Assembly (NCBI RefSeq): GCF_027213965.1
Contig: NZ_JAPWGX010000007.1
Coordinates: 1-64,000 of the forward strand
Length of the DNA stretch: 64,000 nucleotides
Source of the DNA: Maritalea porphyrae
Lineage (GTDB): Bacteria; Pseudomonadota; Alphaproteobacteria; Rhizobiales; Devosiaceae
Direction: 5' to 3'
Part shown: positions 7,142-32,147 of the stretch, in pieces
Position numbering within the stretch: the stretch's first letter is position 1
Layout of the letters: each line of letters starts with the position of its first letter
The notes under the pieces: generated by a model
The model's input: only the letters and a program-made list of their open reading frames with translations
What the model was told of the DNA's origin: nothing
Databases searched by the model: none
Program-made: the position numbers and the translations under genes

Positions 7142-9103
7142 TTAAGCTGGTTGAGGAACTTTATGCAGGCCTTTTTCGCTCAGCACGTTCACACCAACAT
7201 CTTGGCGGACTTTGAACTCAGTGCCATCTTTGCGCCAAACATCTGTTTGATCCAAAAATGGCTCTTCATTGCCCTCGAGATATGTAACCTCGATCGTGTC
7301 ATGCGCGTGTTGATCTGCAAGTAAGAAGAAATCGCCATTGCTGATGCGCCCCTCTTGTACCAATTCAGCCATATTTCGCACAACGTTTGGCACGCCCACG
7401 TGTTTGGCATCAGGATCAGCCTGCGCGGCCAGCAACACAGCAATGTCATCAGATGTTTCTGGACCACAAATAATGTACTTTGGCGCAATGTTAAGTGCCG
7501 TAGCAACCTTGCCATCATCCTGCATCATTGCCATGCTCTTACGAGCAGCTTTCAGTGAAGAAATAGTGGGCAAAGAACCAGCGGACAAATTCTTATAGTC
7601 AGCGTGGAACAAGTCCTTGCCTTTGAACTTGTATGCAGGATTGGTAAAGACCAAGAATACCAATGTACCAATTGTGCGCTTTGCAGCCCGCCCCATCTTG
7701 AGCGGGATTTTAGTAATCGCGTTTAGATCATCATTGATGATCATTTCACGTGTTACACCGAACGTACGGCCATATGTGGATAGAAAGGCACTCACGCCAC
7801 TTTCACCAATTGTTGCGTGCTTGTATTCACCACCCTCGCCCTTTGGCGCCAGTTCGGGGAACAGCCCCACATCAACACGTTTAACTTCTTTGAAGTCTGT
7901 ATGGGTGCCAACTGAGGTGAACTTGGAGAAAGTTTCTTCAATCTCATCAAAGCCTTTTAGCATCGACAAGCGGGCAACATTTTGCAAGATAAGTGGAAAA
8001 TCTGCAGTTGAATGCATACCGCTGCCAGAACGCGTGAACGCTTCCCCCACAAGAGGCATCCGATCCATACCGCGCGTTGACACACTGGTTCGCTCCAAGC
8101 TCTCACGTGCCAAGTCTTCAAGGCGCAGGCTGGTAAACTCATTTCGTTCACCCCCAATTGCTGCCCGTGCCATCATGCCCAATGATGCGCCTTCGATGAA
8201 ACGATCGCGACCATCAGCGGTGATGGATGTTGTGGCAGTGATCGGAGCCGCCTCAGAAACCTTGGCCATTTTTTCAAACGCACGCTTGCGGAAATCATCC
8301 ACGCTATCTTCGCTATCAATTGCCGTTTTGATATCGTCATGAGACATGCCGGCACGTTTCCCAATGTCATGAATTTCTGAGATGCGCGTGCGCTCTGCCC
8401 GTGTCACGGTATTCGCATCAACTTGCGTAGTTGCTTCTGCGATTGCGCCGCGTGTTTGCTCATCTGGCGTATTTTCAATTGGGGCAACACTTTGCCCTTC
8501 AGCTTTTTTAGGCACTTGCGTGACCTCCTGGTTGAATTGGGCATCGGCCCGATTGAAATCTTTGTGTGGAATGGCAGACCGAATGAGCGCCTCAGCATCG
8601 GCTGGCACCGAAACCAATGACACTTCGAGCAAAGTCCATTTTGTGGCGGTCAAAGTGTCATGATCAGCACCCTCAGTGCGCACCTGCGTCCATTGTTCGA
8701 CGGTGTAACCAATCGAGAGTCCGCTCAATTCACCGTTGCGCACCATCTCTTCAGCCCGTTTGGCGGAATCGCCTTCCCCGAACTTGATTGTGCCGATCAA
8801 TTTCCCATCGTTGATGGACGCGCTCACGACTTTGCCAAGAACAGCATCCAGCGATCGTTTATTGTGGTGGTCCAGAAACGGCACGATGTCTTTTTCAAGC
8901 CGCTCAAGGTTGATGGCCTCTTTCGAGATCTCCAACACCTCTTCGATGCCGTAGATCATCCGGCTTGACCCTGCTGAGAATACGGCCTCTACGGTTCGGT
9001 TTTCTTCGTCGTACGTAGATGGCGAGACCAAAACGAAGCGCGCAAGGTTATTCCCAATCAGTTCAGTGGGAACTGAAGGCACAATCTTTGATGTCTGAGG
9101 CAT
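7142..9103 (-). CDS. Prohead protease / major capsid protein fusion
   Basis: 653 residues. Residues ~20-175 are an S78-type prohead protease with His79/His80 in FLDHHN, Ser130 in ELSGLSIGY and Glu160 in LLEVSLVSVPAD. Residues ~290-650 are a Mu-F-like major capsid protein (TYGRTFGVTREMIINDDL; later a conserved GKDLFHADYKN). The linker of ~110 residues is charged and helical, and probably acts as the scaffold. The protease should release itself and the scaffold during head maturation. Such fusions are known in lambda-like heads of alphaproteobacterial and enterobacterial phages. It lies 2 bases from the portal gene. A second S78-like protein is encoded at 18066-18563. Confidence 0.92.
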   Translation of the reverse strand: MPQTSKIVPSVPTELIGNNLARFVLVSPSTYDEENRTVEAVFSAGSSRMIYGIEEVLEISKEAINLERLEKDIVPFLDHHNKRSLDAVLGKVVSASINDGKLIGTIKFGEGDSAKRAEEMVRNGELSGLSIGYTVEQWTQVRTEGADHDTLTATKWTLLEVSLVSVPADAEALIRSAIPHKDFNRADAQFNQEVTQVPKKAEGQSVAPIENTPDEQTRGAIAEATTQVDANTVTRAERTRISEIHDIGKRAGMSHDDIKTAIDSEDSVDDFRKRAFEKMAKVSEAAPITATTSITADGRDRFIEGASLGMMARAAIGGERNEFTSLRLEDLARESLERTSVSTRGMDRMPLVGEAFTRSGSGMHSTADFPLILQNVARLSMLKGFDEIEETFSKFTSVGTHTDFKEVKRVDVGLFPELAPKGEGGEYKHATIGESGVSAFLSTYGRTFGVTREMIINDDLNAITKIPLKMGRAAKRTIGTLVFLVFTNPAYKFKGKDLFHADYKNLSAGSLPTISSLKAARKSMAMMQDDGKVATALNIAPKYIICGPETSDDIAVLLAAQADPDAKHVGVPNVVRNMAELVQEGRISNGDFFLLADQHAHDTIEVTYLEGNEEPFLDQTDVWRKDGTEFKVRQDVGVNVLSEKGLHKVPQPA

Positions 9104-14488: not shown

Positions 14489-15085
14489 CTAGCCAACTTT
14501 TTTCAGATCGACTGCCCATGGTTCGCGCAAAACCGAGGTGGGCAAAGGGCTGAAGGCGGATAAAATATTTTTCAGATCGCACTGCAAAGCGTTTAAACCT
14601 TCCCACCAGACTGTGTGCGCAGCCCTTGCGGCGTTCACTATGTGAGGCGGATAGCCATCATAGGTGTAAAGATACCCGCTGCGCACCACACAGTCGCCCG
14701 TTTTGGCACCTTCGAACATTTTGACGGGTTTACCGTTCTTGCCCACTTGCGGCACCAACGTACCAACGCCTTCTTCTATCCAATCTGGTTGGCTGTCCTT
14801 TTTCGCATGGAAATAAACCAAATCCCGCGCTTGCCCCTTCAAATGCCAAAGGGCATCGAACACTTCGATCGCGTCAACATGGCAATTGGCGATAATGTTT
14901 TGATCGTTTGGCCCATGGCCATCAATGGTGCAGCCCAACATCAACATACGTTCAATCTTGGCAGTGCTGGTTAGGTTGGCCGTTGGCCCATCACCACGGC
15001 GCACGGCAGCTGCTGCTTGCTCGACACATTGATCAACCAGTGCCCACCGCACCAATTCTTGAATTTCGATCTGTTCTTTGCTCAT
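14489..15085 (-). CDS. Phage protein of unknown function between origin-like repeats and late operon
   Basis: 198 residues. It starts MSKEQIEIQELVRWALVDQC, is mostly soluble, and contains a middle part with NCHVDAIEVFDALWHLKGQA and YFHAKKDSQPDW. No family recognised. It lies alone between the iteron cluster and a terminator. The position, just before the late operon, would suit a late-gene or antitermination regulator, but no DNA-binding motif is evident. Confidence 0.75.
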   Translation of the reverse strand: MSKEQIEIQELVRWALVDQCVEQAAAAVRRGDGPTANLTSTAKIERMLMLGCTIDGHGPNDQNIIANCHVDAIEVFDALWHLKGQARDLVYFHAKKDSQPDWIEEGVGTLVPQVGKNGKPVKMFEGAKTGDCVVRSGYLYTYDGYPPHIVNAARAAHTVWWEGLNALQCDLKNILSAFSPLPTSVLREPWAVDLKKVG

Positions 15086-15095
15086 TTTATCGCCT

Positions 15096-15323
15096 GTCCT
15101 AAGTGTCCTATTGCCGTGGTTTAGGTTGGACGCTGCAAAGCCCCGCTCACTGGGCTTTGTCCTATGTGTCCTATTAGTCCTATTAAAAATAGAGGTTATA
15201 AAATCAATTCAGTCGCCTTTACGCGCACGGGGCAGCTAAAAACATAGGACACATAGGACATATAGGACTCCTGTTTGAAATCATTGGCTTTTTCGGTGTC
15301 CTATTGAAGAAATTCAATAGGAC
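15096..15323. repeat. Iteron-like cluster: ten GTCCTA/TAGGAC copies with 9-bp period
   Basis: GTCCTA occurs at 15096, 15105, 15159, 15168, 15177 and 15298. Its complement TAGGAC occurs at 15245, 15254, 15263 and 15318. Neighbours within groups are exactly 9 bp apart. The last pair forms a perfect 11-bp stem with a GAAA loop (15298-15308 / 15313-15323). The cluster lies in a 396-base gene-free gap next to the helicase and primase genes, with an AT-rich stretch at about 15181-15210 between the oppositely oriented groups. The layout resembles an iteron origin of replication; an operator array is the alternative. Confidence 0.7.
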
Positions 15324-15481
15324 GGGGTTGGACTCTCAGCGCCGAAGAAACAGGGCTGGAAGATTTTTTTGGCGCTTGAACGCGTTTGAACAGGCTTTTG
15401 TTGCCACACAATTGGCTCCAAAATCGGGTTTCACCCCATCTGGCCCTGTTTGTTTTCGCTGTGGTTTATGCGGTTTGTGGG

Positions 15482-16927
15482 TCAATTTTGGTCACCATAG
15501 GCGGCTTCATCGTTCGCCCATTCCACGTCTTGATTGACTGCCTCGGCAAAGCCAGCACGGCATTCTTCTAACGTTGGAAACTCGTAACACCACTCGCGTT
15601 TTGCATATTGATCGCCATTGGATGGCACCATGCGCCTGCGCTTTAGGTTGGGCACCAGCTTTTTAAGCGCCTTGCCCACCGTGCTTTCGTAGGATCGGCG
15701 CTTAATGCCCACCAGGTCTGACAATTTGATGTAATCATCATAAATCGCGCTGCATTTGACCACGCGTTCCCACTCACCGGATCCAGACAAGGTTTCACTG
15801 TTTGAGAGGTGGGTGAACCACCATGCCTCTGCGCTATCAAGCGATTGTATCTTTTGCTCAAGCAGCGCTGTGGTTTTGGGTATGGTCCAGAAATCAATGG
15901 TGCTTAGGTCAAAGTGCTGTAGGTCATATAGCAAGGCTTCACGCCCGCCATCGTCCAACTGTTCGTGCATTTCAGCAAAGTAACCGTGGTTTTGCAGCGC
16001 AGCATCACCCACATCCAGCACACAAAAGCGCCGTTCGTCTTTACCAGCTGGCACCACCCAATCTTCGTTTGACGTCATCACCAAGCGCACAAGGTTCTTC
16101 ATGCGGATCGGGTCCACGCCCTTGGCCTCGATCATTTGGTGCTTTGAGGTAATTAGCCCTTTTAAGCGACCTTCAGCATTCTTATCACCTGCCCAAACCG
16201 CCTCTTCAGCCATCAACAGCAAGCATTTGGCCATGTGCGCATTGAAATTGCCGGTGATATATCGCGGGTCATCAACTTGATAGAAGTGGCTGGCGATCAA
16301 TTCGCCCATCACCTCGCCCACCGTAGACTTGCCCGATCCCATGCGCCCGCGAAACACCAGGGCGGTGCCGGTGCGCTCGCGTGGCCGTTGCACCATGTGG
16401 GCAAACCAGCCAAACACCCAATCGCGCAGGGCTTTGTCGCCGCCGCACACATTGTTCAGCAAATGGTCTTCAAAAACAGAATAGCCCTGCTTTTTGGGCA
16501 CCGCTTCACATGAGAACCCCTGCCATAGGTTGAGGTAACCAGGCGATCCGCCCAGCCCATCTGGATTGGGCAAAAACTCCATGCCGCGATATTGCCTGCG
16601 CCGCTCCGCGTGGATCCACGCCTTGGCCCAGGTCATCGGCTTCCGCTTGCCATCGGCCCCAGCGTAAAACACGAACTTATTGTCATACCAGCGGTTGAAA
16701 GCGTCGACCGTGCGGATTTGCAGCCGGTCTTCAATTTCATATGCATCTGGCTGCTCATGCACCATAACGGCCTTAGAGCCAAGCAACACCAACGCCCATT
16801 CTTCATTCATGTTGTCAATGGAGAAATCCCCCATCTCGGCCTGTTCTTCTTCGATGTGGTTTTGTGGTGTTACCGGCGCATCGATGGCTGTTGCTTGACC
16901 AATCGCACTTTGAATTTGGTTGCTCAC
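15482..16927 (-). CDS. Phage replicative helicase / DUF5906-type ATPase
   Basis: 481 residues. Walker A (GRMGSGKST, ~residue 195) is followed by ISHFYQVDDPRYITGNFNAH, LLLMAEEAVWAGDK and a sensor-type LVRLVMTSNEDWVVPAG. This pattern matches primase-associated SF3/D5-like helicases. The N-terminal ~60 residues are acidic. It overlaps the primase gene by 4 bases, so the two are likely translated together and act as the replisome core. Transcription then runs into the iteron cluster. Confidence 0.85.
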   Translation of the reverse strand: MSNQIQSAIGQATAIDAPVTPQNHIEEEQAEMGDFSIDNMNEEWALVLLGSKAVMVHEQPDAYEIEDRLQIRTVDAFNRWYDNKFVFYAGADGKRKPMTWAKAWIHAERRRQYRGMEFLPNPDGLGGSPGYLNLWQGFSCEAVPKKQGYSVFEDHLLNNVCGGDKALRDWVFGWFAHMVQRPRERTGTALVFRGRMGSGKSTVGEVMGELIASHFYQVDDPRYITGNFNAHMAKCLLLMAEEAVWAGDKNAEGRLKGLITSKHQMIEAKGVDPIRMKNLVRLVMTSNEDWVVPAGKDERRFCVLDVGDAALQNHGYFAEMHEQLDDGGREALLYDLQHFDLSTIDFWTIPKTTALLEQKIQSLDSAEAWWFTHLSNSETLSGSGEWERVVKCSAIYDDYIKLSDLVGIKRRSYESTVGKALKKLVPNLKRRRMVPSNGDQYAKREWCYEFPTLEECRAGFAEAVNQDVEWANDEAAYGDQN

Positions 16928-18069
16928 TCAGCGCCCTCCACAAGCATATCGTTAAAGTCTTTGCCATCTGCGGCGTTGGCAATTTTGGCCACCAGCCCTG
17001 GGCGCAAGGCCATGGCGCGGCGACCGCAGCGCTGCAGTTGGTTATCTGTCTTTTTGCTGTCGCTATCGCCATCGCGTAACAACACCAGTTCTTTGCACCA
17101 TGCGGGTGGCACAAAAGCTTCGTCATCGTTTAAATCGGGCAAGTGATTGCACCGCTTGCCGTTTTCATCTTCACCCGCTGCACCGGCCATGTTGCCTAGG
17201 TCTGCGCCGCACCAATATGCGGTGTTGGGCTGGTAAGCTTCTTGCAGCGCTGTCAGCGTTGTTTCAATGCCTTCACCAACCACCAACCGCGTTGGCGCTG
17301 ATGGTGTGTACAGGCGAATGGCCCCGCTCTTTTTGGAGCCTTTCATGATTTTTGAAGGCAATGGGTTGCCCGTATTTGGGTCTGCTTTTTCGCGCTTACC
17401 CTTTGGCGTTGTAGGGTCAAGAAAGGTCATGTGCACCGCGTCCAAATCGTCGTTTGGCTTGATGATTTCACCCACCATGACAGGGCATTCATCAATGGTG
17501 ATCCATTCCACTTTGCCCCCGTTTTTGACCGGAATTTTGCGTTCAAATCGTTCGATTTCGCGTAGCAAAATTTTGAAACGCCCTTGGGCAATCGTGTCCG
17601 CCAATTTGTCCAAACCGCGTTTGCGCAAATAGGCTTCAACCGGACCACCTGGCTTTGGCAAGCGTGCCAGGTTCATGATGCGACGGGCGGACCTTATTTG
17701 GTCCTGCCGATAGCGATTTGCCACGCGTTCCCGCGCTAGTCTGTCTTGTTCGGCCTGCGCTTTCAGCTCAGCTTCACGCGCCGGATCAATTGGCTCAGCC
17801 GCCTTGCGGCCTGTTATGCGCTCAAGGGCAGATTTGTAATCCAACCCTTCCATATGCTGCACCAGCTTGATCACATCGCCACCCACATCGCATTGGCGGC
17901 ACAGCCACACGTTTTTTGAAATGTTGATGGCAAAGCGGTCCGTGCCGCCACAAAGGGGACAAGGGCCAAACCGATCATTGCCGCGTTTGGTGATGGCCCA
18001 GCCTTGGCGTTCGGCCCAATCAATGCAGCTGGTGTTTTGGGCTTCGTTTTTGAGGTGATCGAGGTTCAT
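16924..18069 (-). CDS. Phage DNA primase with zinc finger and Toprim domain
   Basis: About 381 residues from ATG 18069, preferred over the upstream start at 18126 because a GGAGG lies 7 bases before it. The zinc finger CPLCGGTDRF...WLCRQCD lies at residues ~38-62. A Toprim-like domain follows in the second half (LVVGEGIETTLTALQEA, then LLRDGDSDSKK). The enzyme should make RNA primers for phage replication. The start overlaps the stop of the S78-like gene (ATGA), and its stop overlaps the helicase start. Confidence 0.9.
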   Translation of the reverse strand: MNLDHLKNEAQNTSCIDWAERQGWAITKRGNDRFGPCPLCGGTDRFAINISKNVWLCRQCDVGGDVIKLVQHMEGLDYKSALERITGRKAAEPIDPAREAELKAQAEQDRLARERVANRYRQDQIRSARRIMNLARLPKPGGPVEAYLRKRGLDKLADTIAQGRFKILLREIERFERKIPVKNGGKVEWITIDECPVMVGEIIKPNDDLDAVHMTFLDPTTPKGKREKADPNTGNPLPSKIMKGSKKSGAIRLYTPSAPTRLVVGEGIETTLTALQEAYQPNTAYWCGADLGNMAGAAGEDENGKRCNHLPDLNDDEAFVPPAWCKELVLLRDGDSDSKKTDNQLQRCGRRAMALRPGLVAKIANAADGKDFNDMLVEGAE

Positions 18070-18563
18070 GGTAACCACCTCCAACGCGTGTTTTGCATTG
18101 GGAACAACACAAAAGAAACCTCCCAAAGCTGCACAAGGGTTATAACTCGTTTTCCATTGACTTTTTTGGCACTTAGGGTTCTGAAACCAACCGACAACCC
18201 TGCGATGTCCTGAATTACAAGGCGCTTCAACAAGTCGCGATTGATTTCGGCTGAGACGAAGAGCCCGTTTTGGCGTTGTTCAACCTGCCAATATCCGTCG
18301 AGTGAGTTCGGAACATGCTCCATAAGCATTCGAACATTGCGCACCGGTTGCAAGCTGTTTGGCGCAAACTCGTCGCCATTCACATCACTTGTGCCGTACC
18401 ATGCTGCATACCCGCCAATCACGATTGGGTCTTTGGGCGAGGGTTTACGCCCCGTCAACATTGCAATTTCCAACATTTCCCGCTCAGCATTAAGAGCAGA
18501 TTGAACGGCCTCTTGTCCGGCTTTGCCAAAGTGCCAAAGGAATTTTATGTCTTGCAAGTTCAT
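18066..18563 (-). CDS. S78-like (HK97 prohead protease family) protein in the replication module
   Basis: 165 residues. The body reads as an S78 fold: GGYAAWYGTSDVNGDEF, His83 in VRMLMEHVPN, Ser124 in IAGLSVGFRTL and Glu148 in LWEVSFVLFPM. All three positions that would form the protease active site are present. The true maturation protease of this phage is fused to the capsid at 7142-9103, so this is a second copy, divergent and embedded between small early genes and the primase. It ends in TGGTTACCATGA, coupled to the primase start. Its function in early expression is unknown; it may process a different target. Confidence 0.75.
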   Translation of the reverse strand: MNLQDIKFLWHFGKAGQEAVQSALNAEREMLEIAMLTGRKPSPKDPIVIGGYAAWYGTSDVNGDEFAPNSLQPVRNVRMLMEHVPNSLDGYWQVEQRQNGLFVSAEINRDLLKRLVIQDIAGLSVGFRTLSAKKVNGKRVITLVQLWEVSFVLFPMQNTRWRWLP

Positions 18564-20580: not shown

Positions 20581-21837
20581 TCAAACCAACTCGCCCAAAA
20601 TCTCATCAACCATCTTGATGCGCGCACCTAGCACCCGCATCACATTCACCGCCATGGAATTGCCCAGCGCTTTGTATCGCGGCCCGTCCGCTGCGGGCTT
20701 GCCGTGCGTGTGTGGCACAAGCGTATAATTGTCTGGAAAACCTTGAAGCCGCTCGCATTCGGTTGGCGTTAGCCGGCGCACTGCATAATTCGCTGGCACC
20801 AGGGCCCCTTGCTCATGTGGCAATCGCGAGGCGCTGCGCGACATGCCCGAAGTCAGCGGAAATGCCACCGCCATCTGCCCACCGCCATTTTGATGGCTGG
20901 TGGTTGAATTCATCGCTCGTAATGTTGGCGTCACATCGTTTTGAGCATCTGCGCCATAGTCCTTTGATAAAAAGGCAGTGGCGACATAGCTGTCCAGATC
21001 CTCTGCCAGACTGTCATTTCCCTTGGCCAACAATGGTCGTGAAGTATCGGGTACGAACATGGATGCGCCGCCAAGCGCATGCTGATCTTCAAGGCCAAGC
21101 TTTGAGCCAAATGACGCATTGATTGGAGCGGTCACTTCCGTCGGCCAATCGTGCACACCACCATTCAAGTCAAAATCGGTGCCGAGGCCACCACCGCCTG
21201 CAGTGCGGCTGCTAAGTGTGCCGGCAGCGTCTTGCCCCGTTTCGTGGCGCGGCGCAGAATCCCTGCGCAGGCTTTTGGCGTCAAAAAGTACCGCTGCTGC
21301 ACTTCGCCAATCTCCAAGATATCCAACAACGAACACACGGCGTCGTGATTGAGGCACAGCCCTGGGGAATCCATCCACTCGACAGTATTGAGCGTCCAAC
21401 ACTCTGTAGGCCCACCCATACCCGAGTTGCGCCAGCCCTCCGACAAAGGCACCAAAGTCCCGTCCTTCGTTGGATGACAAGACACCGGGCACATTTTCCC
21501 AAAGGATCCAACGGGGCTGATATTTTTCAGCAATTGCAAGGTAGGTAAGGGCGAGGTTACCACGTGGGTCGCTAAGTCCTTTTCTGAGGCCAGCGACGGA
21601 GAATGATTGGCAGGGGGTTCCGCCGACAAGAAGGTCAATTGCATAGTCGAGCCATTCCTTATATTTGGTCATGTCGCCAAGATTGGGCACATCCGGATAT
21701 CGGGCTTGAAGCAAGTTGCTTGGAAACTTTTCGATTTCCGAAAAGAACGCAGGTTTGAAGCCCAACGATTCCCACGCCACACTTGCCGCTTCAATGCCTG
21801 AACAGACAGATCCAAACCGCATCACACCACCCCGCAT
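20581..21837 (-). CDS. DNA (cytosine-5)-methyltransferase
   Basis: 418 residues (413 if ATG 21822 is used). Motif I is FGSVCSGIEAAS, the catalytic Cys76 is in GGTPCQSFS, motif VI is ENVPGVLSS, motif VIII is QSRRRVFVVG, and motif IX/X is ERLQGFPDNYT...ALGNSMAVNVM. The target-recognition region is long and variable (~residues 190-330). No restriction partner is adjacent, so it is an orphan enzyme, probably protecting phage DNA from host restriction or modifying regulation. It is divergent from brnT; the shared gap holds a 14-bp inverted repeat that may control both. Confidence 0.95.
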   Translation of the reverse strand: MRGGVMRFGSVCSGIEAASVAWESLGFKPAFFSEIEKFPSNLLQARYPDVPNLGDMTKYKEWLDYAIDLLVGGTPCQSFSVAGLRKGLSDPRGNLALTYLAIAEKYQPRWILWENVPGVLSSNEGRDFGAFVGGLAQLGYGWAYRVLDAQYCRVDGFPRAVPQSRRRVFVVGYLGDWRSAAAVLFDAKSLRRDSAPRHETGQDAAGTLSSRTAGGGGLGTDFDLNGGVHDWPTEVTAPINASFGSKLGLEDQHALGGASMFVPDTSRPLLAKGNDSLAEDLDSYVATAFLSKDYGADAQNDVTPTLRAMNSTTSHQNGGGQMAVAFPLTSGMSRSASRLPHEQGALVPANYAVRRLTPTECERLQGFPDNYTLVPHTHGKPAADGPRYKALGNSMAVNVMRVLGARIKMVDEILGELV

Positions 21838-21847
21838 AAGTTTTTAT

Positions 21848-21891
21848 TGTAACTACATTTATTCTTGACAAGTTCATTAAATGTAGTTACA
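21848..21891. promoter_or_regulatory. brnTA promoter overlapped by a perfect 14-bp inverted repeat
   Basis: Left arm TGTAACTACATTTA (21848-21861) and right arm TAAATGTAGTTACA (21878-21891) are exact reverse complements with a 16-base spacer. A plus-strand promoter lies across them: TTGACA at 21865-21870, 17 bases, TACATT at 21888-21893. BrnA-type antitoxins are known to repress their own operon, so the arms are the probable operator. The left arm lies 11-25 bases before the divergent methyltransferase start, so that gene may be regulated too. Confidence 0.8.
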
Positions 21892-21920
21892 TTAAACCCA
21901 TCAACAAAGTGGGATGCGAC

Positions 21921-22181
21921 ATGCTGGAATGGGATCACAACAAATCGGAACAATGCCGCGAGTTGCGCGGCTTTGGTTTTGATTTGGCTGAACAGTTCGA
22001 TTTCAGCGCGGCCCAAATGATTGTTGATGAACGCAAGGATTATGGCGAAGTTCGGATCAACGCTTTTGGGCGTATTGACGGTGCGCCATTCGCCATCACC
22101 TTCACCCCACGAGGTAGAAACATTCGCATCATTTCGATGCGCCGCATGCATGAAAAGGAGGCCAGACGATATGGCATCTAA
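21921..22181 (+). CDS. brnT: BrnT family ribonuclease toxin
   Basis: 86 residues from ATG 21921 (a GTG start at 21909 is possible). It shows the BrnT/DUF497 pattern: EWDHNKSEQC, RGFGFDLAEQFDF, VDERKDYGEVR, ITFTPRGRNIRIISMRRMHE and a final EARRYGI. BrnT is an RelE-fold RNase neutralised by BrnA. It overlaps brnA by 10 bases. The pair faces opposite to the surrounding early operon and has its own promoter, so it should be expressed in the lysogen. Confidence 0.93.
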   Translation: MLEWDHNKSEQCRELRGFGFDLAEQFDFSAAQMIVDERKDYGEVRINAFGRIDGAPFAITFTPRGRNIRIISMRRMHEKEARRYGI

Positions 22182-22446
22182 GAAACCAGATCCATTTGCG
22201 ATCGATGAGGACAACAAGCCCTTATCTGACGAGCAAGTTGCCAAGCTGCGCCCCGGTAAGGACGTGCTTGCAGAACTTGGCGTTGACGCGCCGGAGCCAA
22301 AAAAGCGCGGTCGGCCTGTGGCTGACAACCCAAAGCAATCTGTCACCTTGCGGCTAGACGCAAAAGTGCTGGAACACTTTCGCGCCACCGGCAAAGGCTG
22401 GCAAACCCGCGTAAACGAGACATTGCGCAAAGCCATTGGTGAGTGA
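22172..22446 (+). CDS. brnA: BrnA family antitoxin
   Basis: 91 residues from ATG 22172, with AAGGAGG 9 bases upstream inside brnT. The C-terminal part KQSVTLRLDAKVLEHFRATG followed by KGWQTRVNETLRKAI is the ribbon-helix-helix-like DNA-binding part of BrnA. The N-terminal part, rich in P, D and K, is expected to bind the toxin. It should bind the inverted repeat at 21848-21891. Confidence 0.92.
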
Positions 22447-22462
22447 TTGCGGGTTGAGGCCA

Positions 22463-22711
22463 TCATTCAACCGCCCGCGTTGTTGGGTTTGTGCGCTCTG
22501 TTGGTCGACCGTCATCTGCATGAATTTCGGCCAAGGCATTGTTGAGCAAACCAAGCGCCTTGCGGGCTTCTTGTTCGCTCATGTCAAATTCAAGTGGCGA
22601 TCCATCCAAATGCAGGCGAATGCGGTGATCGCCGCTTGGTGCTAGGTGCAACTTGCACAGCACATCGCGTGGGTTTGGTTTGGTCTGTCTTACGAAAGTG
22701 CTAAAAGCCAT
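22463..22711 (-). CDS. Small phage protein, unknown
   Basis: 82 residues from ATG 22711, overlapping the GcrA-like stop in a TGATG. It has the segments LCKLHLAPSGDHRIRLHLDG and EFDMSEQEARKALGLLNNAL. No family recognised. It is the last gene before the brnTA pair, converging with it. Confidence 0.65.
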   Translation of the reverse strand: MAFSTFVRQTKPNPRDVLCKLHLAPSGDHRIRLHLDGSPLEFDMSEQEARKALGLLNNALAEIHADDGRPTERTNPTTRAVE

Positions 22712-23256
22712 CACCAGCCCCCTTGCAAAGTGGCGTGTTTGGTGTGGGTTTCGCAGTAGCTGGATTTGCCTTCCCCATTGTCGTGACCGCAATAATAGGT
22801 TTTGCCATCGCGCTCGATCGGCCAGCGGCAGTGATGGTTTTTTAGGTCCATCATGGTGACAAAAAGCGCGTCCTGGTTGTGTGGCGCGGTGTCTTTGACA
22901 CAGTCAAACAGCCCTTGCTCTTGTTTTTCAGCCGAAACTTGTTGCGACTTTTCGCTAAACTTGTGCTGCAGGCGATGTTCCAAATTTGTGTCTTTGCGGC
23001 CACGCGTTGTGCGCACTTTTGTTTTTGTGCGCGCACCGGCCATACGGCTAGCCATGGCCGGTTCTGCCATTTGTAATTTGTTGCGATCGACAAAGCCCAA
23101 AATGGCATTGCGTGAGCAGCCTAATTTGGTGCCAAGTGCAGCAGCGCTTATGCCCGCACGGCGCGAAATGTTGACAATGGAGACTTTTGTGTCCTTGTCC
23201 ATATCATCCCACTGTGGGAGATCCATTTGCTCAAGGTCGGTGACAGGACTGTCCAT
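22711..23256 (-). CDS. GcrA-like cell-cycle regulator encoded by the phage
   Basis: 181 residues. The N-terminal half contains a helix-turn-helix like that of GcrA (SRRAGISAAALGTKLGCSRN, then AILGFVDRNKL). The C-terminus has the conserved CRWPIER...YYCGH...SYCETHTKHA signature. In Caulobacter, GcrA binds sigma-70 and activates promoters carrying methylated GANTC sites. Compared with host GcrA the middle linker is basic (KTKVRTTRGRK). It starts in a TAATG overlap with the methyltransferase gene, so regulator and methylase are made together. A role in steering host or phage sigma-70 promoters is inference. Confidence 0.8.
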   Translation of the reverse strand: MDSPVTDLEQMDLPQWDDMDKDTKVSIVNISRRAGISAAALGTKLGCSRNAILGFVDRNKLQMAEPAMASRMAGARTKTKVRTTRGRKDTNLEHRLQHKFSEKSQQVSAEKQEQGLFDCVKDTAPHNQDALFVTMMDLKNHHCRWPIERDGKTYYCGHDNGEGKSSYCETHTKHATLQGGW

Positions 23257-24899
23257 TAGGCCACCTCACCTTGCTTGATGATCTCTAAGTCTTTTTCCAA
23301 ATCCAACGGCAGAATTTTGCCGCCAACGGCCACCATTTCGCGCACCATCTCGTCGCCCTGTTGTCGCCCCTTTGGTTTTGGGTTGAACTTGGCGGGTTCT
23401 TTAAGCGACACGGTGTAATATTGGCCTGCAGGGCTTTCATATGGCCCGCCAACATTTAGAACGCGGTATTCTTCGATCTCACCTTTTGCAACCAGGTGCA
23501 CCAAATCGCCAAAGGCCAGCAAATCTTTTACCGTGGGCTGCCCTTCTGGCACATCACGAAACATGCCATCTTCGATCCGTGCACCATTGTTGAGCAGTGC
23601 CATTTGTTCAGCCAGTTTGTTGGACTTTGCGGCCACCACTGGCAGGTTTTCAACTGCTGCGGGTGTTTCTTCTGCTTCAGGCGCTTCATTGCCCCACACA
23701 TCCCAGCCAGGGCGGCAGGTGCGCGCGTTCAATTCGATTTTTGGCAATGACGGGTAGTGTTTTTCAATGAACTCATGAATTTCAGATGGCTTTTGCGAAT
23801 GCTTGCCCTTTGGCGCTCTAAACACCGCATCAGGCTGTGTGCCCATGGCCGGTGCGGGCACCTTGCCACGCGTGGCGATGATGAAAGGTTCGCCATTGTC
23901 GCGCAACCAATAGCCATTGCCTGCATGCAACTTGTGCCACACACCAAATGTGCAAAACTTGAAGCCCCATGCTTCAACCACCCGCAAAGCGTTGGGGAAA
24001 TTGGCGCGGGTTGCCCACATAATCAGCAAACAATCTTTGGCGGCAATTTCGCCCACCGGACGCGCCATAATTTCTTCGATCGCGCTTGTTGGGTAGTGGT
24101 TGTCGGCAGCTCTATCCATGCCGGTTTCTTGGCTATAAGGTTCAAACTTCCATTCAGGATCCGCCAAGATCACCCCATACTTTTTGTCGGGCAACGCAAT
24201 TTGTTTGGCACCCAATGCTTGCTCTTTTTCAGCCCGCTTTTGTTTTTTCTCGGCGGTCTTTTTGTCGCGCAACTCTTTGGTGACTTTGGCGATGGCTTTG
24301 GGGTTTGCATCGCGCATGATTTCGGCTTGTTCTGCCGCTGGCAGTTTGGCCAGCGCGGCAGCGGCGCTGACCTTGAGCGCACCTTGCTCAACAGCCGATG
24401 CCAGTTCTGGTGCGCCATGTGCAATGACGGTCTTCGCGTGAGCGACAGAACGCTCAGAAACTTGTAGCTTTGCAGCAGCATCTTTGATTGAGGTTTTGGG
24501 TGCGCTATTCTGCAAATTTGCAGTATTGGACTTTGGCTGTGCCCCAACCGACATGTCTGCAATTTTGGCCGCAACGGTTGCCCGTTGGCTTGAGCTCAAG
24601 TGTCGTCGTTGCAAGTTTTTGGACAGCACAAATTGCAAAGGATCTGGCGAGATGTTGGCCAGCTTGCAGTACATTGCAAAGTCAATGAAATGCTTTGGGC
24701 CAAACTCGCCAATTTCTTGCAACGCTTTATAGCGATTGCGACCGTCTAGAATTTTGCCCTCAAGCAGAATGATCTGTTCTTGCAGACCGTTTTGCCGAAT
24801 GTCGTCCACAAAATCGGCGAACCATTGTGTCGCCATGTAAGGGAACATATCGGCATATGGGTGCGGCTTAAGCGCGGTATAATTGGTCAGGTTTTTCAT
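23256..24899 (-). CDS. ParB-domain / MT-A70 adenine methyltransferase fusion
   Basis: 547 residues from ATG 24899, which overlaps the stop of the preceding gene; upstream in-frame residues to 24974 lie inside that gene. Residues ~10-110 are a ParB/Srx-like domain (LQEQIILLEGKILDGRNRYKAL, LSKNLQRRHLSSSQRA). A helical region with a helix-turn-helix-like SIKDAAAKLQVSERSVAHAK follows. The MT-A70 catalytic domain is at ~235-430 with DPEW (247-250) replacing the common DPPW. A tail of ~115 residues has no recognised fold. It probably makes N6-methyladenine in phage or host DNA. Its own coding sequence contains the 14-bp palindrome also found before the late operon. Confidence 0.9.
   Translation of the reverse strand: MKNLTNYTALKPHPYADMFPYMATQWFADFVDDIRQNGLQEQIILLEGKILDGRNRYKALQEIGEFGPKHFIDFAMYCKLANISPDPLQFVLSKNLQRRHLSSSQRATVAAKIADMSVGAQPKSNTANLQNSAPKTSIKDAAAKLQVSERSVAHAKTVIAHGAPELASAVEQGALKVSAAAALAKLPAAEQAEIMRDANPKAIAKVTKELRDKKTAEKKQKRAEKEQALGAKQIALPDKKYGVILADPEWKFEPYSQETGMDRAADNHYPTSAIEEIMARPVGEIAAKDCLLIMWATRANFPNALRVVEAWGFKFCTFGVWHKLHAGNGYWLRDNGEPFIIATRGKVPAPAMGTQPDAVFRAPKGKHSQKPSEIHEFIEKHYPSLPKIELNARTCRPGWDVWGNEAPEAEETPAAVENLPVVAAKSNKLAEQMALLNNGARIEDGMFRDVPEGQPTVKDLLAFGDLVHLVAKGEIEEYRVLNVGGPYESPAGQYYTVSLKEPAKFNPKPKGRQQGDEMVREMVAVGGKILPLDLEKDLEIIKQGEVA
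24510..24523. promoter_or_regulatory. Second copy of palindrome CTGCAAATTTGCAG, inside the methyltransferase gene
   Basis: Identical to 14305-14318 including two flanking bases on each side (ATT...GT context). It is in the part of the gene coding for the linker between the ParB-like and HTH-like segments. An intragenic operator or a recruitment site for the encoded protein are both possible. Confidence 0.4.
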
Positions 24900-25342
24900 G
24901 CGTACGCTCCATGCCATTCGATCAGCAGCAGCAGGCTTTGCGCTTCTTGTCTTTCCTCGGCGAAAGCAGCGCATTCCGCTTCATGTTCAAACCGTTCCTT
25001 AAGAGCGCACTGCATTTTGTGGGAAAGGAGCGGCCTTTGTTCGCGACCATGGTTTTTGACAATGGTGCTTAGGCGCTCAACTTCTTGGTGCAGTGCAAAA
25101 ATCCGTGCGCGGGCGGCACAAATGATTTCATCATGTTCAGTGTCGTGGCGCTTTAGCATCCGTATTTGGGTGTCGAGTTCCCAATCTGTCAGCTGATCAA
25201 AGGCCGAGGGGTCTTTGACCACAGCGTGGGTAAGTTGCGTCATGCGGAAGATTGATTGCGGGTCATCACCATGATTGGTGCCATCGCCAAATCGCAAGGC
25301 CGGTTGCAGGTCTTCAAGTTCAACTTTACTCGACTTACTCAT
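24896..25342 (-). CDS. Phage protein with coiled coil, unknown
   Basis: 148 residues, highly charged, with a predicted coiled coil in residues ~50-130 (ARARIFALHQEVERLSTIVK). No family recognised. It overlaps the CII-like gene upstream and the methyltransferase downstream by 8 and 4 bases, placing it in the early leftward operon. Confidence 0.7.
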   Translation of the reverse strand: MSKSSKVELEDLQPALRFGDGTNHGDDPQSIFRMTQLTHAVVKDPSAFDQLTDWELDTQIRMLKRHDTEHDEIICAARARIFALHQEVERLSTIVKNHGREQRPLLSHKMQCALKERFEHEAECAAFAEERQEAQSLLLLIEWHGAYA

Positions 25343-29866: not shown

Positions 29867-30228
29867 ACGTGGTTGATCTTGATGCTCCAATCCCGATCTC
29901 AAAGGCTGTGCCAATCATCTTCCCGCATGGTGGCGGCACTTTAAACACTGTTCGCACCCTCATTCGCAAGGGTGACTTGCCAGCATTGAAGCTTGGCCGT
30001 AGCTTCTTTGTAACAAGACGCCACATTCAAGAGATGAAACAAAGATGCCAGCTGCCGCAAAAGGCCCCTACCTTTGGTTTAGGAAAGAACGCCGTGACAA
30101 ACAGTCAGGACGGATCATTGCCAACGGGCTCTGGATCATTATCGACAACAAACAACATATCGCCACAGGATGCACTAAACGCGAAGTTGAACGCGCTCAA
30201 GAAAAGCTGCGCCAATACTCAGAACTAA
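29863..30228 (+). CDS. Excisionase-like helix-turn-helix protein
   Basis: 121 residues from GTG 29863. Residues ~25-60 (NTVRTLIRKGDLPALKLGRS, FFVTRRHIQEM) are the winged-helix of AlpA/Xis type. The last ~60 residues are of low complexity (S, T, N, Q, K) and are read out of frame from the integrase N-terminus over 184 bases; they may be accidental. It should steer the integrase toward excision on induction. Confidence 0.75.
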   Translation: MNVVDLDAPIPISKAVPIIFPHGGGTLNTVRTLIRKGDLPALKLGRSFFVTRRHIQEMKQRCQLPQKAPTFGLGKNAVTNSQDGSLPTGSGSLSTTNNISPQDALNAKLNALKKSCANTQN

Positions 30229-31112
30229 AGTACGATCCGCGCAAAAAGAAGCGCGACATTGATCATATTGGCGTCGCAGACGTTCTCAGCATCTACCTCA
30301 CAGACAAAAACGCCAATATTGGACGCATACAGCGCCTAAATGAATTTTGGGGCAACAAGGCCCTGTCGGATGTTAACGGCGAGACATGCCGTGCCTATGT
30401 AAAGCATCGTGGCACCGTTCAAGGCGCAAGACGCGACCTAGAAGATCTGCGATCAGCCATCAACCATCATGCCAAGCAAGGCTTGCACCGCGAACTCGTT
30501 ATGGTGGCACTACCACCTCGCAATCCATCCAAAGATCGTTGGTTGTCACGATCAGAAATAGCACGATTGCTTTGGACATGCCTTACATATCACGAAGTTC
30601 AGCGCGGCAAGAAAACCAAGAAGCGCCCATTACGCCATCTGGCGCGTTTCATTCTAATTGCTTACTACACTGGAACGCGACACAGCGCGGTGCTCACCGC
30701 ATCATTCATGCGAGGTAAGGACCGCTCGTTTATAGACCTGGAGGCGGGCCTATTTTATCGCCTTGCTGAAGGTAAAAATGCAACCAACAAGCGTCAAACA
30801 CCCGTTCCCATTCCACCGCGTTTGCTTGCCCATCTCAAAAGATGGAATCGAACAAGTGATGATTATGTGGTGCAGTTTAAAGGCAAGCCTTTGGCCAGCG
30901 TCAAAAACGCATTCGGAACGTGCGCAGAACTTGCCGGAATACAAGACATCACCCCACACACCCTGCGCCACTCAACGGCCACACACCTTATGCAAAGAGG
31001 CGTTGACAAGTGGGAAGCAGCTGGCTTCTTAGGTATGTCAATTGAAATGTTAGATCGTGTCTATGGCCACCATCACCCGTCTTACATGCGGGCAGCGGCG
31101 GCTGCGCTTTAG
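30045..31112 (+). CDS. int: Tyrosine recombinase integrase
   Basis: 355 residues. The N-terminal arm-binding part KGPYLWFRKERRDKQSGR is typical of alphaproteobacterial phage integrases, so the start at 30045 inside the excisionase gene is credible. Catalytic residues: Arg in YTGTRHSA, the His-x2-Arg box TPHTLRHS, then GHHH and the nucleophile Tyr in MLDRVYGHHH. It integrates the element at the tRNA 3' end at 32071. Confidence 0.95.
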   Translation: MPAAAKGPYLWFRKERRDKQSGRIIANGLWIIIDNKQHIATGCTKREVERAQEKLRQYSELKYDPRKKKRDIDHIGVADVLSIYLTDKNANIGRIQRLNEFWGNKALSDVNGETCRAYVKHRGTVQGARRDLEDLRSAINHHAKQGLHRELVMVALPPRNPSKDRWLSRSEIARLLWTCLTYHEVQRGKKTKKRPLRHLARFILIAYYTGTRHSAVLTASFMRGKDRSFIDLEAGLFYRLAEGKNATNKRQTPVPIPPRLLAHLKRWNRTSDDYVVQFKGKPLASVKNAFGTCAELAGIQDITPHTLRHSTATHLMQRGVDKWEAAGFLGMSIEMLDRVYGHHHPSYMRAAAAAL

Positions 31113-31127
31113 AGTTATACAATAGGA

Positions 31128-31976
31128 CTAGCCGTCGACGTTTTTAGCGATCAGGTAAGATACAAAAGAAGCGCATGCACCCAGCATAAACAATGCATCG
31201 GCTTCATCAACCTGCACAGAATCAGGAAACACAATGGCGTGACGAGCGGCGGTGTTTTCGTCGTTTGTGTAGCTGTATAGTTTCTCGAACGCAGCTTTCA
31301 ATTTTTCATTGATTACTTTGCGTTTTCCGATCTTCTTTAGAGCCGAGCCCAAAGTGCCTTTTTCGTCTTCGGAAATGTTCTTCGCGACCGATTCCACGGC
31401 ATGAATACTCTCACGAACGCTTGAGCGCCAATCCTTTTCAGCTAGCATCTTCCCAGATGAGACTAGATGCTCCCGCGCACCGGCAAATCCACTTTCCTCG
31501 GCATCATCGACCGCGTTCAAGAAGGTATCCGCTTGCTCGGCGGTGCCGATTGCTACAACCTGCAAATCAATTATACGGTAAGCCAACCCGGCTTCAAGAA
31601 AAGCATTGATTAAATCAACTTGAAGCGTCGACGTGATCGCCCGATGTCCAACAAAAAACTCAATCAGATCAAACAGTCGGTTGTACTCATATGTACGGGT
31701 GCAGTTTTCTAGTTGCTCCTTTAAAATGTTGGCACTGTCGTTAAAAGTTCCAATCGACTTGCGATAGAACTTGACATGCAAATCCTTTGCAACGTTAACC
31801 CATGTTCCGAGAGAAGATCTACCCGGACCCCAAACCGTGTTGCGTTCGATTTCCGATTGAAAGGCATAGTCAACCAGCAAACGGAATTGGTTCGAAATCT
31901 CGTATAGGCGCAACTGGTCGGGCGCGGCCACAAGACCATTCCGCTCCGAAAAACTCTGCTTTCGTTTCTCACGCAC
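31128..31976 (-). CDS. AbiJ-like HEPN-domain protein (putative abortive infection)
   Basis: 282 residues from a GTG start. The N-terminus (KQSFSERNGL) resembles the AbiJ N-terminal domain class. The C-terminal ~100 residues match the AbiJ-type HEPN part: WRSSVRESIHAVESVAKNI, LGSALKKIG, LKAAFEKLYSYTNDENTAARHA. Such proteins are linked to abortive infection, with the HEPN part as presumed RNase, although a clear R-x4-6-H was not identified here. It is opposite in strand to the integrase and lies between integrase and attachment site, the usual slot for phage cargo. Confidence 0.75.
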   Translation of the reverse strand: MREKRKQSFSERNGLVAAPDQLRLYEISNQFRLLVDYAFQSEIERNTVWGPGRSSLGTWVNVAKDLHVKFYRKSIGTFNDSANILKEQLENCTRTYEYNRLFDLIEFFVGHRAITSTLQVDLINAFLEAGLAYRIIDLQVVAIGTAEQADTFLNAVDDAEESGFAGAREHLVSSGKMLAEKDWRSSVRESIHAVESVAKNISEDEKGTLGSALKKIGKRKVINEKLKAAFEKLYSYTNDENTAARHAIVFPDSVQVDEADALFMLGACASFVSYLIAKNVDG

Positions 31977-32070
31977 AACATATCCAATCGTTTTATTGGT
32001 TTATTTATTGGCTGTGTCCGAACACCGCAGGTCGACGAAATAATAAACCATTGATATTATTTAAAAAAAA

Positions 32071-32147
32071 TGGTGGGCCCGGTAGGACTCGAACCTACGA
32101 CCAGACCGTTATGAGCGGTCGGCTCTAACCAACTGAGCTACAGGCCC
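32071..32147 (-). tRNA. tRNA with CAT anticodon, probably tRNA-Ile2 (lysidine type)
   Basis: Minus strand, 77 bases with an encoded CCA. Acceptor stem GGGCCTG/CGGGCCC (one G-U), D-loop TAGCTCAGTTGGTTAGAGC, anticodon loop CTCATAA with CAT, T-arm GTAGGTTCGAGTCCTAC. The acceptor and body match bacterial tRNA-Ile2 (CAT, modified by TilS) rather than elongator or initiator Met, but this distinction is by eye. The 3' end is the prophage integration site and the gene stays intact. Confidence 0.93.

Follow-up and report, generated by a model that had tools for sequence, protein, structure and literature searches.

The origins of PICIs adjoin the 3′ end of the replication initiator gene and consist of an AT-rich region between two sets of iterons; for the Escherichia coli element EcCICFT073, the rep–ori segment supports plasmid maintenance and deletion of ori significantly lowers colony numbers (PMC6092414, in excerpt). 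The origin of the SaPIs is recognized by the C-terminal domain of their Rep helicase, and the SCCmec helicase Cch2 binds a single 23-bp site of three short iterons immediately past its own coding sequence, with binding by its C-terminal domain assayed (PMC7581432, in excerpt). Among the open-access matches listed, a set covered at the level of titles and abstract openings and lying mostly outside the subscription literature, no paper describes this layout in complete phages.

Within the 64-kb stretch of Maritalea porphyrae DNA analysed here (the window), ten copies of GTCCTA/TAGGAC are packed into 228 bp of a 396-bp intergenic gap (15086–15481), directly 3′ of the gene for a DUF5906 AAA+ helicase (Table 1). 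Copies start at 15096, 15105, 15159, 15168, 15177 and 15298 on the plus strand and at 15245, 15254, 15263 and 15318 on the minus strand, and the step within each group is exactly 9 bp. A preliminary description of this DNA had reported ten phased copies in opposed groups closed by a perfect hairpin, in a gap beside helicase and primase genes and enclosing an AT-rich part; the coordinates of the copies are confirmed, gene calls and matches to DUF5906 and CHC2/Toprim bear out the setting, and the AT-rich part corresponds to a patch filling the left half of the core between the triplets. We propose that this array very probably serves a temperate tailed prophage as its replication origin and would be bound by the C-terminal domain of the adjacent helicase.

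Table 1. Window coordinates of the array components and adjoining genes.
Feature	Position	Strand	Remarks
Outer iteron pair, two GTCCTA copies, 9-bp step	15096–15110	+	10 nt between its end and the 198-aa start codon
Small second inverted repeat, CAAAGCCC/GGGCTTTG, in the interval from outer pair to triplet	15136–15159		Fold z −3.7
Iteron triplet 1, three GTCCTA copies, 9-bp steps	15159–15182	+	Reads toward core
AT-rich patch, candidate melting site	15180–15211		30-mers of 17% G+C
Core separating the opposed triplets, 62 bp	15183–15244		39% G+C
Iteron triplet 2, three GTCCTA copies, 9-bp steps	15245–15268	−	Reads toward core
Outer inverted iteron pair forming a perfect hairpin	15298–15323 (15298–15308/15313–15323)		11-bp stem, 4-nt loop
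DUF5906 (PF19263) AAA+ helicase, proposed initiator	15482–16927	−	Pfam 4.8e-24; PHROG DNA primase 1.1e-42
CHC2 zinc-finger/Toprim primase	16924–18126	−	4-bp overlap with helicase gene
198-aa protein, PHROG 9306 (unknown function), first gene past the array	14489–15085	−	

The array is rare by every count made. Exact GTCCTA occurs 20 times in the window against 8.0 expected from shuffles, with ten of the 20 inside the 228 bp; when the gap was shuffled 2,000 times with dinucleotides preserved, each shuffle held at most two copies and opposed phased triplets appeared in 0/2,000. The sequence GTCCTANNNGTCCTA has five occurrences in the 3.6-Mb host genome, all within the array, and the triple form was found in one of 61 genomes searched, the window's own. 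Folded as plus-strand DNA, the hairpin reaches −10.3 kcal/mol (z −6.6). Among 30-mers starting in the first 32 kb of the window, 0.02% are as poor in G+C as the patch or poorer, and no 25-mer of the whole 1,200-bp stretch 3′ of the helicase has a lower G+C content. A simple consensus scan of the gap gave no promoter- or terminator-like site, so the hairpin was rejected as a terminator, and no TTWTNCACA (DnaA-box-like) site is present there. An RNA element was also set aside, Rfam returning two sub-threshold matches that we take as chance. A GC-skew switch is absent, with no change of sign at the array, which may be expected for an integrated prophage. The AGGA of the outer pair could serve the 198-aa gene as a Shine–Dalgarno sequence (15085–15110, ATG 10 nt downstream), and initiator binding at this pair might also affect that gene.

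The element is a temperate prophage, cut at base 1 by the contig end so that the gene set in view is incomplete, and it is not a satellite. Genes on the strand of the helicase gene match small and large terminase, portal, a capsid–protease fusion and a P2-I-type tail protein, whereas a PICI is by definition a satellite reliant on a helper for virion genes. One prophage block at 20581–24974 (minus strand) holds a C5 cytosine methylase, a GcrA-like cell-cycle regulator and an MT-A70 methylase, and the likely edge lies at 30045–32147, with a tyrosine integrase, an AbiJ N-terminal-domain protein and tRNA-Met. Beside the primase, a 165-aa match to Peptidase_S78 (prohead protease) spans 18066–18563 (minus strand); a second S78 domain belongs to the capsid fusion at 7142–9103. 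The helicase is the sole DUF5906 match in the host genome.

Set against the PICI and SaPI origins, the window array shows opposed iteron sets flanking an AT-rich region, a position immediately 3′ of the rep helicase gene, and a Rep that is a D5/DUF5906-type AAA+ helicase (PF19263). The Rep of the E. coli CFT073 PICI has D5_N, DUF5906 and Pox_D5 domains, with PF19263 in common with the window helicase, from which D5_N and Pox_D5 are absent at E 0.01. A looser form of the array detector described below found a single opposed array in 45 kb of EcCICFT073, directly 3′ of Rep; the strict form missed this origin, and it was recovered with wider spacing. Judged on these layout features, the window array would work like a PICI/SaPI origin in an element that is not a PICI. 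There are differences: PICIs and SaPIs are satellites, whereas this phage has its own terminase, portal, capsid and tail; the window iterons are GTCCTA in strict 9-bp steps, those of EcCICFT073 GGTAGA/TCTACC in 7–11-bp steps; the primase is a separate CHC2/Toprim protein, unlike in the PICI/SaPI systems; and the window-type layout extends beyond satellites to records with phage terminase and portal genes and to small plasmids. SCCmec Cch2 shares with the window the placement of repeats directly 3′ of the helicase gene but has a single 23-bp site, resides in a chromosomal cassette and works with a primase related to A-family polymerases (PMC7581432, in excerpt). The mechanism is of a known kind; the interest lies in the extension beyond satellites.

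By sequence profile, the closest solved relatives of the helicase family are PDB 6k9c and 6k9e ('Primase', E 2.7e-27), which we take to be the helicase domain of the NrS-1 phage primase–polymerase; in NrS-1 this helicase domain forms part of the primase–polymerase. The window helicase scores far under the cut-offs of both NCBIfam primase_Cterm and TIGR01613 ('P4 family'). The P4 alpha protein belongs to a family of primase–helicase initiators whose C-terminal domain recognizes short iterons; P4 differs in its iterons, its crr layout and its single fused protein. Classical iteron plasmid origins of the Rep_3/Pi type combine iterons of about 20 bp with a non-helicase Rep and DnaA boxes, and this class was rejected given the 9-bp unit, the gap free of TTWTNCACA and the absence of such a Rep among the ten neighbouring proteins scanned. 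Origins of the lambda O type, with iterons inside the initiator gene O and a helicase loader P, were likewise rejected: the array is intergenic and none of the ten proteins gave an O- or P-like match. The VBR1 Vibrio plasmid replicon, whose origin has four direct repeats and whose published description mentions neither 'pMP1' nor 'DUF5906' in the main text, was judged unrelated.

The layout was sought 3′ of related helicases with a strict detector (a phased triplet plus an opposed copy, any 7-mer, one mismatch, steps of 8–11, within 1,200 bp 3′ of the helicase stop). In a first, mixed set it flagged the window and 14 of 34 other relatives (28–57% identity), against 0/288 shuffles of that set's 36 stretches, EcCICFT073 included. 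In the close clade (49–58% identity) it flagged an opposed array past the helicase stop at 21 of 23 loci, four of the 21 being contigs already retrieved as L128–L131; judged by eye, the two misses look like degenerate arrays. Widening the spacing to 6–16 added one further relative (L153) as well as EcCICFT073. Arrays were found in 0/116 stretches upstream of the helicase gene and in 0/121 inside it, and a control of 278 real-DNA windows of 1,200 bp gave eight hits, namely six known arrays, one in phage RDJL Phi1 and one in phage YuA, the last of which we read as an array. In RDJL Phi1 and a near-identical contig the array appears only about 2 kb downstream of the helicase. The YuA-like clade has no array beside its helicase; 2 of its 53 adjacent stretches were flagged, both on a near-palindromic GCGATCG motif (L250, L256), and we distrust these as false positives. 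Three relatives of the Roseomonas protein (0/3) and the retrieved parts of Pam3 and RHph_TM26 gave no array. Counts leave out eight window self loci; near-copies or same contigs (L128, L133, L177, L178, L180, L191); relatives with tblastn E above 1e-8 (L141–L145, of which L142 was flagged by the looser detector); loci running off a contig end (L163 and L170 in the first set; L209, L223, L227, L247 and L261 in the second); and stretches under 600 bp (L200, L205). For plasmid pMP1 (L150) the alignment overran the annotated stop, so that its 1,200 bp begin about 69 bp too far downstream. The records of 17 close-clade loci were searched, several of them fragments and one a whole genome assembly, where an integrase may belong to something other than the phage; over cut-off, a GpA-type terminase is present in 10, a lambda-type portal in 11 and an integrase in 13.

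The resulting 32 arrays, from which the two GCGATCG hits are excluded, share an arrangement while their motif drifts (GTCCTA, GGTCCA, GTCCCA, CCCACCT, CCAACCT, GGTCAG, CTGCACA, TGGAAAA and others). Wherever the motif contains GTCC, the GTCC points toward the core (22/22); a single letter separates TGGTCCA from its reverse complement, which weakens one-mismatch orientation calls, and orientation was set by best match. Exact 9+9 steps on both sides characterize 16 of the 32, and 12 GGTCCA/CCAACCT arrays have a proximal pair with a 10+9 outer set; two others step 8+9, one 10+8 on one side, and L184 uses 11 bp. At least two outer copies accompany 31/32 arrays, and 26/32 have an outer inverted pair with members 10–40 bp apart, both outside the triplets; the hairpin in the window corresponds to such a pair. 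In 19 of the 31 arrays with an outer copy on the helicase side, the start of the closest such copy is 30–36 bp away from the triplet; many of these arrays are closely related. The lowest-G+C 25-mer of the 1,200-bp stretch falls in the core in 13/32, the window among them; an AT-rich core is therefore common but, in this measure, no rule.

The drift in motif follows the helicase. Across 27 helicases (31 of the 32 arrays, the pMP1 protein being too short, before removal of near-duplicates), iteron distance correlated with distance in the C-terminal domain once ATPase-core distance was controlled for (partial r 0.35, 0/2,000 permutations), and the close clade alone gave 0.40 (p 0.001), in permutation tests that leave part of the shared-ancestry signal; iteron distance against ATPase-core distance, given the C-terminal domain, gave r 0.00 (p 0.47) in the 27. 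The C-terminal domain matches the RFX winged helix weakly in 4 of 11 members, the window helicase included (E 0.009–0.019, below the Pfam cut-off), and a PDB chain carries the same hint (E 0.046). Past the 32 arrays, the next open reading frames (picked mechanically, a crude choice) lie on either strand and form 20 groups sharing no BLAST similarity at E 1e-5. In tblastn at E 1e-4, the 198-aa protein found no counterpart in 16 relative loci, several of them ending about 1.5 kb past the helicase. Because of the C-terminal-domain link, the varied next genes and the unmatched 198-aa protein, the helicase, rather than a regulator acting on the next gene, is the probable reader of the array.

These data bear on two other readings. 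The array might be an operator through which a phage repressor or activator controls the 198-aa gene or late genes, a use that the outer pair's closeness to the start codon of that gene would suit, as would the overlap of the YuA array with an annotated promoter stretch. We regard it as very unlikely, since the downstream genes vary as described, a consensus scan restricted to the sigma-70 type finds no such site in 14900–15700, the motif follows the C-terminal domain of the helicase, and the array recurs in small plasmids. At a similarly low probability, the array could be an origin read by some other protein, whether the 198-aa product, the primase or a host initiator such as DnaA, with the helicase loaded second. 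Classical plasmid and lambdoid phage iterons are indeed read by non-helicase initiators; here, the lack of a TTWTNCACA site in the gap, the failure of the 198-aa protein to match in the relative loci and the tracking of motif divergence with the C-terminal domain all speak for the helicase, as does recognition of the SaPI origin by the C-terminal domain of its Rep helicase (PMC7581432, in excerpt). Of the two initiators that the preliminary description had considered, the helicase is thus favoured on comparative grounds over the 198-residue protein, and its broader idea of an origin served by a phage-encoded initiator gains support from the conserved layout, the drift of the motif with the C-terminal domain and the published EcCICFT073 origin.

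The array also occurs outside prophages of this type. The plasmids pMP1 (7.6 kb), a Roseomonas plasmid (9.7 kb) and pMNOD07 (9.8 kb) carry it 3′ of a DUF5906 gene whose product is the only replication gene listed for them in the PLSDB table, an incomplete source; the 27-kb pEC224_4 has the array and also encodes a RepB-family initiator. The lytic-type Vibrio phage VP5 holds a perfect TGTCCAC array (L175, 39114–39242), its GTCC reading away from the core, and phage YuA has an array at L172, 33044–33190; both are opposed 9-bp arrays upstream of the terminase small subunit and far from the DUF5906 gene, and both are candidate origins. This placement, together with the position of the window array between replication and packaging genes, would fit a packaging (cos/pac) or an incompatibility/partition site instead of an origin. 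We consider that reading the least probable of all, given that the small plasmids with the array list no terminase in their (incomplete) gene tables and that in satellites the same organization functions as an origin (PMC6092414, in excerpt).

A scan of viral contigs for GTCCTA triplets listed at least 120 stretches, and of the 120 listed one, L103, matches the window helicase in tblastn at E 1e-3. Opposed GTCC-type arrays lie beside AAA_25 proteins (L015, 6028–6250; L119, 3161–3427), a Prim-Pol/DUF3987 protein (L094, 6446–6665) and a D5_N/DUF5906 protein (L072, 6304–6403), suggesting that close DUF5906 relatives are not the only carriers of the layout. Further hits in viral contigs, often with GGTCC or AGGTCC motifs, may be chance or coding repeats.

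Under the origin reading preferred here, the C-terminal domain of the DUF5906 AAA+ helicase, which covers residues of about 345–481 and is probably a winged helix, would bind the GTCCTA iterons with their 9-bp phasing. Each opposed triplet would help to position one hexamer; the two helicase rings would then face one another across the AT-rich core, melt it and depart in opposite directions, while the adjacent CHC2/Toprim primase would prime the forks. Bidirectional replication is proposed from the opposed orientation of the triplets. As further copies of the same iteron, the outer pair and the hairpin may act as extra initiator sites for loading, handcuffing or auto-control.

The origin type called unique to PICIs is, on balance, probably a general replicon of elements with DUF5906 helicases, with a shared grammar and a drifting recognition code between C-terminal domain and motif. 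If so, one grammar (an outer inverted pair, triplets converging on a core, steps of about 9 bp) would serve complete temperate phages, some lytic ones (RDJL Phi1, VP5, perhaps YuA), small plasmids and satellites. It provides a sequence-level rule by which origins can be nominated wherever a phage or plasmid carries a DUF5906 helicase, and the 27 distinct natural motif–helicase pairs are available for tests of initiator specificity. The fast-drifting C-terminal domain and its short motif would then form a readable code setting which elements compete for, or use, each other's initiator, and these observations suggest that satellites and complete phages may draw on one replicon type.
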